In this document: positions 19,514-21,214 of the stretch, one piece after another
Layout: each line of letters starts with the position of its first letter
Numbering within the stretch: the stretch's first letter is position 1
The notes under the pieces: generated by a model
The model's database searches: none
What the model was told of the DNA's origin: nothing
Seen by the model: only the letters and a program-made list of their open reading frames with translations
Source: an uncultured Flavobacterium sp.
Lineage (GTDB): Bacteria > Bacteroidota > Bacteroidia > Flavobacteriales > Flavobacteriaceae
Length of the DNA: 64,000 nt
Direction of reading: 5' to 3'
Assembly: GCA_913061465.1 (NCBI GenBank)
Contig: CAJXSU010000003.1
Coordinates: 1 to 64,000, forward strand
Made by a program: the position numbers and the translations under genes

Positions 19514-21214
19514 CTAGAGGTCTAACTGGAAAGTATCTTTAAGTATCTTTATATATGGATTTTTTTCTTTTAATTTATTGTATTTCTCTTGGGGAGTGTA
19601 GGCAAATTTCTTTTCTACAGTTTCACTTACCGTAACATTTATAGTAATACTATAATTATTCAGAGACTCTCTTAAAAATTTGAGAAGTTTTGGTTTACCT
19701 AACTTTAATTGATCCTCCATAAGTTTATTGGGGAGCATAAAGTGAATATTAAAGTTTTCTAAGAGTTCAGGTTGAGAAGTAGCTAAAATTGAAGCCATAC
19801 TTTTTTCACCTTTTTTAATTTGTAATTTTTGATAATTACTCCATGTTTTTTCCAAATCTTTGTCAGAAAATGAATCTTTAGGGTGATTTTCATAATTAAT
19901 TTCAATTGGCTTCTTTTGTTGCTCCTTCTTTTGATGAATGCTTTTTAAAGAAAGTGAATTATTTCTTCTTTTAAGGTTTTGCAAAATTGGAGACTTTGTA
20001 ATTTCTATTTCTTTAGAAGTTACTTTTTTCAAGGAATTATCTAAAACTTCTTTTTTTGTAGGTTCGGGTTTTTTTGTGATTTCCAGTTTTTTTACTGGAG
20101 ATAATGAAGTAAAAAATGTTGCAGGTATTATATAGTTAGCTGTTTTTTTTTTTTCTCCATCAAAAGTGATAGAGGCAATTTGCATTAGGGTTAGCTCTAC
20201 AAGAAGTCGTTGATTTTTACTGGTCCTATAATTTAAATCACATTGATTGGCCTTTTCTATAGATTGTATGAGAAAAGAAATGGAGACTTTAGAAGATTGT
20301 TCTAAATATTTTTTTTTTGCATTATCACCTACCTCAAGAAGGCTTATTGTTGAGTTATCTTTTGCAACTAATATATCTCTAAAATGAGAAGCCAACCCAT
20401 TTATGAAATGGTGACCCTCAAAACCTTTAGCCAAGATCGTGTTAAAGTTGTTTAAAACCTCTGGAATTTTATTTTCCAACAAGAGCTCTGTCATTGAAAA
20501 ATAAGTATCATAATCTAATACATTTAAGTTTTGAGTAACTGCTTCTCGGGTTAATTTATTGCCAGAAAAACTTATAACTCTGTCAAAAATTGATAAAGCA
20601 TCACGCATTGCACCATCAGCTTTTTGGGCAATAATATGAAGGGCGTCATCATCTGCAACAATACCTTCTTTTTCTGAAATAGTTTTTAAAAATTTTTTAG
20701 TATCTAAAACAGTAATTCGTTTAAAATCAAAAATTTGACATCGTGACAGAATTGTTGGAATAATTTTATGTTTTTCTGTAGTAGCTAATATAAATATAGC
20801 ATGAGCTGGTGGCTCCTCTAAAGTTTTTAAAAAAGCATTAAAGGCCGCTTGAGATAACATATGAACTTCATCAATAATATAGACTTTATAATTCCCGGTT
20901 TGAGGAGGTATCCTAACTTGATCAGTTAAGTTTCTTATATCATCAACTGAATTATTAGAAGCAGCATCCAATTCAAAAATATTAAATGCAAAATCTTCAT
21001 CATCTGAAATTAAATCCTGTTGATTAATACTTTTTGCTAAAATTCTAGCACAAGAAGTTTTTCCAACTCCTCTTGGTCCTGTAAAAAGTAAAGCTTGGGC
21101 TAAATGATTGTTTTTTATAGCGTTTTGAAGCGTGTTAGTGATAGCTTGTTGCCCAACAACATCCTCAAAATTTTGTGGTCTGTATTTACGTGCAGAAACT
21201 ATAAAATGCTCCAT
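19514..21214 (-). CDS. dnaX: DNA polymerase III subunit tau/gamma (DnaX)
   Basis: This is the clamp-loader ATPase. The Walker A GPRGVGKT (46-53), Walker B IIDEVHML (D115, E116) and SRC motif (157-159) are intact. Domain III ends near 345 (VELTLMQIAS). The remainder, a Lys/Pro/Glu linker and a C-terminal domain to residue 566, is tau-specific. The zinc module of other DnaX proteins is absent: after C55 the usual C-x8-C-x2-C-x2-C is replaced by a short acidic loop. The frame runs up to a TTG at 21241, but that lies in the -7 box, so I start at ATG 21214 (MEHFIVSARKYRP). A12 at 20154-20143 (codons 354-358) is a likely slippage site giving a gamma-like form. It is convergent with the antiporter gene. 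Confidence 0.96.
   Translation of the reverse strand: MEHFIVSARKYRPQNFEDVVGQQAITNTLQNAIKNNHLAQALLFTGPRGVGKTSCARILAKSINQQDLISDDEDFAFNIFELDAASNNSVDDIRNLTDQVRIPPQTGNYKVYIIDEVHMLSQAAFNAFLKTLEEPPAHAIFILATTEKHKIIPTILSRCQIFDFKRITVLDTKKFLKTISEKEGIVADDDALHIIAQKADGAMRDALSIFDRVISFSGNKLTREAVTQNLNVLDYDTYFSMTELLLENKIPEVLNNFNTILAKGFEGHHFINGLASHFRDILVAKDNSTISLLEVGDNAKKKYLEQSSKVSISFLIQSIEKANQCDLNYRTSKNQRLLVELTLMQIASITFDGEKKKTANYIIPATFFTSLSPVKKLEITKKPEPTKKEVLDNSLKKVTSKEIEITKSPILQNLKRRNNSLSLKSIHQKKEQQKKPIEINYENHPKDSFSDKDLEKTWSNYQKLQIKKGEKSMASILATSQPELLENFNIHFMLPNKLMEDQLKLGKPKLLKFLRESLNNYSITINVTVSETVEKKFAYTPQEKYNKLKEKNPYIKILKDTFQLDL
20143..20154 (-). other. A12 run in dnaX: probable transcriptional slippage/frameshift site
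   Basis: The coding strand has 12 consecutive A bases spanning E354-K-K-K-T358, about ten residues past the end of the clamp-loader core. With one extra A the frame reads K, N, S and stops (359 residues). With one A fewer it reads Q, L, T, I and stops (361 residues). Thermus dnaX is a known case of slippage on an A9 run to make gamma. Confidence 0.65.

Follow-up and report, generated by a model that had tools for sequence, protein, structure and literature searches.

A conserved A-run abutted by an RNA hairpin as a probable programmed slippage site in dnaX of Flavobacteriaceae

Introduction

The dnaX gene of Escherichia coli yields two clamp-loader subunits, tau and gamma, from one gene via a -1 ribosomal frameshift (PMC5009743, PMC3711429), and in dnaX of Thermus thermophilus transcriptional slippage takes place on a run of nine A (Larsen 2000, as cited in PMC1088944 and PMC5009743). 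According to the accessible text of Antonov 2013 (PMC3711429), whose genome set included 20 Bacteroidetes species, 17 dnaX genes consist of two open reading frames, nine of them with A10, and can produce tau only by recoding. Transcriptional realignment was suggested there, with -1 frameshifts only reported for dnaX, and the occurrence of both directions among orthologues was considered a sign of such realignment. Moreover, in Roseiflexus IS630 a nascent-RNA hairpin is located directly 5' of the slippage motif, U5C5, which loses one base (Penno 2015, via PMC5009743).

Here, dnaX was analyzed in a window of 64,000 nucleotides, i.e., the whole stretch of DNA under study (positions 1 to 64,000 of contig CAJXSU010000003.1 of an uncultured Flavobacterium sp.). 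The locus has in common with Thermus the gene itself, an A-run behind the core, an in-frame tau reading, stop codons in the two other frames and, as we infer here, the production of gamma by slippage. The run measures A12 in the window and A9 to A14 in relatives, against A9 in Thermus, and unlike in the Thermus model the frame of tau changes among the Bacteroidota relatives. An abutting hairpin with codon-level selection characterizes dnaX of Flavobacteriaceae. Such a hairpin 5'-adjacent to the slippage motif is shared with Roseiflexus IS630, here as a predicted structure, whereas the motif consists of A only and belongs to a housekeeping gene, instead of U5C5 with its one-base deletion. The two-ORF genes of Antonov 2013 have the same architecture as the out-of-phase relatives described below, whereas the window differs in having its tail in frame; the accessible text of that paper mentions neither the hairpin nor the frozen stop codon (PMC3711429). 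The proposed outcome, tau plus gamma, is that of E. coli dnaX.

Materials and Methods

Four sets of dnaX genes were compared. For the congeners, 97 genomes were searched, 92 were over the cut-off, and 90 were used including the window, after leaving out two with incomplete genes (G031 and G089). The named Bacteroidota loci were the best 80 of at least 594. In the phylum sample, which excluded the window's family, 293 of 296 matched and 90 were examined (the 30 best and 60 chosen for family spread among the matches listed), and in the family sample, covering other genera of Flavobacteriaceae, 148 of 149 matched and 70 were examined (the 30 best and about every third of the rest). Together these sets hold 330 genes and may share species. 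The window was assigned to Flavobacteriaceae through its named relatives. The quantity counted was the longest A-run just behind the dnaX core.

Hairpins were evaluated by keeping the amino acids fixed and redrawing the codons, with 300 draws for the window. One congener with Thr for Ala (L017) lacks the alignment motif, which leaves 89 of the 90 congeners in the codon comparison upstream of the run. For the set of 62 distinct hairpins, 12 rows with a run below nine or another register were dropped, and two genes with extra loop bases (L034 and L042) were left out of the hairpin tests tied to the tree.

Results

The window encodes dnaX on the minus strand at 19514..21214, with a tau subunit of 566 amino acids counted from ATG and an inferred gamma-like short form; the product scores above the cut-off of NCBIfam NF011531 and TIGR02397. 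The plus strand reads T12 at 20143-20154, hence A12 in the sense of dnaX, beginning in codon 354 and extending over codons 354-358. The match to dnaX_nterm ends at residue 355 of the 575-residue reading started at TTG, corresponding to residue 346 from ATG, about 8 residues before the run, in agreement with an earlier note on this DNA that had placed an A12 shortly behind the ATPase/collar core. The same note had called it the longest mononucleotide run within a gene, and it is indeed the longest homopolymer of the window, the next reaching 10. Translated in silico, A12 gives 566, A13 359, A11 361, A10 358 and A14 362 amino acids, so that the lengths given before for the full product and for one A more or fewer are exact.

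The genome of the window (assembled to 2.35 Mb in 123 contigs, with 84% completeness) contains A12 or longer in only two places. The other one, at G000:C37:21522-21535 (L281), is an A14, the only longer A-run of the genome, and lies, probably ahead of the start codon, at position 5 of an open stretch. Runs of at least A10 number 38 when both strands are counted, and by a simple test 24 of them lie in a sense open stretch, with two in dnaX and some of the rest preceding the likely start codon. As A10 or longer is not rare in this genome, also within genes, the run by itself is no proof, and the case rests on comparison. The second A10 of dnaX (20309-20318, minus strand) covers a Lys-Lys-Lys motif at residues 300-302 of the core. 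Its abutting hairpin is weak (-1.8 kcal/mol) and the site is not conserved, with A9 or longer in 2 of 24 and 0 of 50 genes at the neighbouring Lys-Lys-Lys registers (residues 300 and 301). Because slippage at this position would break the core, a plain A10 may slip little, and the 22 other runs of at least A10 in sense open stretches of the genome likewise suggest that such runs may not slip much here.

At least nine A were found in 89 of the 90 congeners (A9 in 1, A10 in 62, A11 in 22, A12 in 3 and A14 in 1). The only exception (L158) has A7, and its tail is also broken by a stop about 75 codons on, suggestive of a homopolymer error of the assembly. The run was also present in all 70 sampled genes from other genera of Flavobacteriaceae, in 71 of the named Bacteroidota loci (9 of these best 80 of at least 594 being without it) and in 60 of the 90 genes of the phylum sample outside the window's family. 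Over all sets this amounts to 290 of 330 genes with A9 or longer, 215 of them with exactly A10, while A8 was found at the dnaX site in 0 of the 330. As an internal control, the other Lys-Lys-Lys motifs of dnaX were encoded with A9 or longer in 4 of 98 cases among the congeners and in 1 of 10 among the named loci (best 80 of at least 594). The A12 is therefore no chance run, given its conservation, and the earlier proposal of a programmed slippage site is supported by this comparison; orthologues with mixed AAA and AAG codons and no run, which had been named as the contrary outcome, were not what the congeners and the other family genera displayed. The A12 thus appears to belong to a slippage site that is kept widely across Bacteroidota.

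Conservation of the run extends to GC-rich genomes. Three Hymenobacter genes (L104, L106 and L107) have kept A10 at 60-63% GC with AAA making up 10-33% of their Lys codons, and A10 is found at 63-64% GC in three genes of the phylum sample (L222, L231 and L233). Among the phylum-sample genes with at least 55% GC the run is present in 10 of 21, absence being common there as well. Seven genes of family f17, which belongs to another class (L229-L235), carry A9 or A10 at 53-64% GC, three of them having an out-of-frame and four an in-frame tail. The run is missing in 40 of the 330 genes, including three named Bacteroides/Bacteroidaceae loci. Eight genes (L064, L066, L075, L085, L088, L091, L192 and L224) have no A-run longer than 4 behind the core and a tail in frame, and the site is apparently absent from them; they comprise three named Bacteroides/Bacteroidaceae, three other Bacteroidales and two members of family f11.

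Both other frames are closed shortly behind the run. Reading in silico with one A more ends at a TAA at 20136..20138 (minus strand) after 359 amino acids, and with one A fewer at a TAA at 20128..20130 (minus strand) after 361. The latter stop, read from 20130 to 20128, is made by the Ile codon ATA at 20129..20131 (minus strand). The double stop pointed out in the earlier note is kept, as both frames are closed at most six codons from the run in 90/90 congeners. All of these also have the motif [YF]-I-[IV]-P, encoded in the first 20 codons behind the run, and its first Ile is ATA in every one of the 90, compared with 25% of the remaining Ile codons in these genes. At the following Ile, where no such stop would result, ATA is used in 9/90, and in the congeners the TAA in that shifted frame arises from ATA only. 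In the named loci (best 80 of at least 594) the motif was found in 16 of 80, with ATA in 16/16, and a looser motif in the family sample gave 38 ATA, 8 ATT and 24 genes in which the motif was not found. The fixation of ATA and the off-frame stops speak for actual reading of the shifted frame. Besides, codon preferences were seen at 20132-20137, where Asn is AAC in 80 of 88 congeners (31% elsewhere) and Tyr is TAC in 75 of 81 (33% elsewhere). These C-endings are not required for the stops, and with them the short tail of the shifted frame ends in Thr-Thr instead of Ile-Ile, which perhaps spares the short product a degradation signal, an idea only.

Directly upstream of the run, at 20155..20174 (minus strand), the transcript can form an 8-bp hairpin, CUCUAUCA-CUUU-UGAUGGAG, which was recognized by the codon draws and by frozen wobble codons. 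Its 3' arm touches the run, the last G adjoining the first A, or lying one base earlier in a subgroup. In the window the hairpin has -7.8 kcal/mol against a mean of -2.7 over 300 draws (p 0.003), and among the congeners it is significant at p<=0.05 in 87 of 89 (mean -7.7 versus -2.6 kcal/mol). Moreover, it is the most stable hairpin abutting any of the 38 runs of A10 or longer in the window's genome, the next having -5.2 kcal/mol and the median being 0. Within the named loci (best 80 of at least 594), p<=0.05 was reached by 15 of 20 Flavobacteriaceae (L031-L049 and L052), or by 15 of 22 when two more loci are added whose titles also point to this family (L053 and L056, both p 1.0), and by 11 of 51 other loci. 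In the other genera of Flavobacteriaceae the hairpin is significant at that level in 42 of 70 and not in 28, and in the phylum sample outside this family in 3 of 60, i.e., at chance level. The hairpin as a phylum-wide feature was consequently dropped on the basis of this last count. Unlike the run, which occurs widely in the phylum, the hairpin belongs mainly to Flavobacteriaceae, as judged by codon draws.

The codons underlying the hairpin are under selection. In the congeners Ala is GCC in 89/89 (13% elsewhere), Ser is TCT in 87/89 (45% elsewhere), Ile is ATC in 87/89 (9% elsewhere) and Gly is GGA in 87/87 (38% elsewhere). The codons preceding this set vary, and the frozen bases pair in the hairpin. 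The wobble C of Ala is present in 135 of 138 genes that have the GGAG arm and absent in 22 of 28 without it (two rows left out and kinship ignored). Compensated hairpins were often seen, such as CUCUGUC/GGCGGAG (L320), CUCUGUC/GACGGAG (L297), CUCUCUC/GAGGGAG (L338) and a C-G to U-A exchange (L159). In the 62 distinct hairpins, two-sided cells number 21 against 10.1 in 1000 arm shuffles and pairing amounts to 77.4% against 72.5% (both 0/1000, with shuffles that ignore kinship); pairs with two-sided change showed no excess in this set (4 versus 3.8 shuffled, 609/1000). For 21 typed hairpins compared column-wise, 83.3% is paired versus 79.9% after shuffling (0/500), and the covariation signal is weak, its score being reached by 6/500 shuffles and as many doubly changed pairs being obtained in 175/500. 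A phylogeny-aware test of the pairs went in the expected direction, with four usable pairs, too few to reach significance. Taken from codon usage, the hairpin is held by codon choice in Flavobacteriaceae.

The tau tail of the window is in frame with the core, as in 235 of the 290 run-bearing genes, and phase is thus not indifferent. In the other 55 the tail is out of frame, and since standard reading cannot give tau there, slippage is needed for it, which makes the earlier claim if anything too modest, with 55 of 290 relatives needing slippage for tau itself. Most of these tails stay open over about 190-260 residues (shorter in L090, 64, and L093, 124). An offset of 2, requiring one added A, applies to 47 of the 55, and an offset of 1, requiring one A removed or two added, to 8. 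This ratio of about six to one agrees with additions of A being more frequent than losses, as holds for Thermus according to the review of Atkins et al. (PMC5009743). A FastTree tree built from the 330 cores requires no fewer than 36 phase changes. Out-of-phase alleles include A10 with offset 2 in four Flavobacterium loci (L045-L048), A9 with offset 1 in another (L049), identical A10-TAG with offset 1 in L137 and L143, and identical A11 with offset 2 in L122 and L133. In the family sample 10 of 70 genes are out of phase, and the open frame of dnaX was shorter than 440 amino acids in 22 of the 148 family matches. Assembly errors in the homopolymer could account for some isolated out-of-phase cases, and out-of-phase species are likely annotated with a truncated or broken dnaX.

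Discussion

The A12 of dnaX is, with good confidence on our part, a programmed frame-splitting site, at which hairpin-assisted slippage of RNA polymerase would give rise to tau and a gamma-like subunit. RNA polymerase would slip on the run and produce mRNAs with more or fewer A, of which those in frame would be translated into the tau of 566 amino acids. The other mRNAs would reach a stop within a few codons and yield a gamma-like subunit of about 358-362 amino acids with the ATPase and collar core and without the tau tail, the frozen ATA ensuring an immediate end of one shifted frame. Production of both proteins, and the ratio between them, is what we infer from this scheme. In Flavobacteriaceae the hairpin in the nascent RNA, just upstream of the A-run, would probably act on the polymerase and promote slippage, much like the hairpin of a terminator.

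A slipping polymerase would make all three frames, and the frame of the tau tail could therefore drift. A wider reading, to which we give an even chance, is that this is an old dnaX slippage site of Bacteroidota, in which the tail frame has drifted at least 36 times, such that the long subunit came to need slippage in some lineages and the short one in others. In Flavobacteriaceae, a terminator-like module, consisting of the hairpin and an A-run of about the length of the RNA-DNA hybrid, would then single out dnaX from the numerous plain A10 runs in AT-rich genomes of this kind; the hybrid measures 9-10 bp (PMC5009743, figure legend).

Of the other explanations, programmed -1 ribosomal frameshifting in the manner of E. 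coli survives best, and we nevertheless consider it unlikely. The ribosome would step back one base on the A-run and meet a stop, giving gamma. In 42 of 90 congeners the run ends as A10-G with an in-frame AAG and contains A_AAA_AAG, 47 of the 55 out-of-phase tails are in the frame reachable by a -1 shift, and GGAG, which is part of the hairpin arm, lies directly before the run. The heptamer is, however, not conserved, other congeners having A10-T (20), A11-C (9), A11-T (9) or A12-C (3 of 90), as does the window with A12-C, and the kept run is 9-10 instead of 7, A8 being absent throughout. Structure downstream of the run as a stimulator of the ribosome was rejected as well, since a stem-loop beyond the expectation from codon draws was significant (p<=0.05) in 5/89 and 3/71 genes only, which is chance level; the window itself, with p 0.065, is not quite nothing in this respect. 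Moreover, the eight genes with offset 1 need the opposite direction, which a -1 ribosomal shift cannot serve, and orthologues that need opposite directions, if judged as in Antonov et al. (PMC3711429, accessible text), argue for polymerase slippage over a ribosomal shift. Without a conserved A_AAA_AAG or a downstream stem-loop signal, and with a longer run and both directions, the locus is thus unlike E. coli dnaX. Furthermore, poor frameshifting at prfB and rare use of Shine-Dalgarno sequences are reported for Flavobacterium johnsoniae (PMC12421855, 2025, accessible text), and a ribosomal mechanism is thereby less likely for Flavobacteriaceae.

A hypermutable contingency run, in which replication slippage would toggle cells between tau-on and tau-off states by phase variation, is very improbable. 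The DNA run does change in length, from A9 to A14, and at least 36 phase changes are seen on the tree. Yet dnaX is a core replication gene and not a surface antigen, and phase variation is unlikely for such a gene. Out-of-phase alleles are shared within groups, as in the four Flavobacterium loci with A10 and offset 2 whose tails are open over 210-234 codons, and since shared alleles keep their tails open, those tails must be expressed. Selection on the hairpin and on ATA is not expected under phase variation, and the retention of exactly A10 in some GC-rich genomes also speaks against it. Finally, a chance lysine-rich linker in an AT-rich genome, as could be imagined from the 82% share of AAA among Lys codons (the genus median) and the 22 other long A-runs in sense open stretches, is refuted by the conservation comparison with other Lys-Lys-Lys motifs, is at odds with the out-of-phase tails, the frozen ATA and the genes that retain the run at 60-64% GC, and has next to no probability.

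Slippage in dnaX and two-ORF dnaX genes with A10 are already known (Antonov 2013, PMC3711429, accessible text), and as that genome set includes 20 Bacteroidetes, part of the out-of-phase set may already be theirs. Beyond that paper, nothing on dnaX slippage in Bacteroidota was found in the literature searched, which was largely open access, and neither the hairpin nor the frozen stop codon nor the reach of the site through the phylum was found mentioned in it. The frozen ATA stop codon and the abutting hairpin of the family, held by codon choice, accordingly seem to be new, as far as a search of this scope can tell; these two features and the reach through the phylum also go beyond the earlier note.

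If polymerase slippage on the A-run is the correct reading, a replication gene is expressed via deliberate slippage of RNA polymerase across much of a phylum, which would imply that making both the tau and the gamma form is worth keeping. The hairpin and the A-run together would offer a simple model for site-specific polymerase slippage. Lineages that lack the run, the named Bacteroidaceae loci among them, would serve as natural controls for the purpose of gamma.
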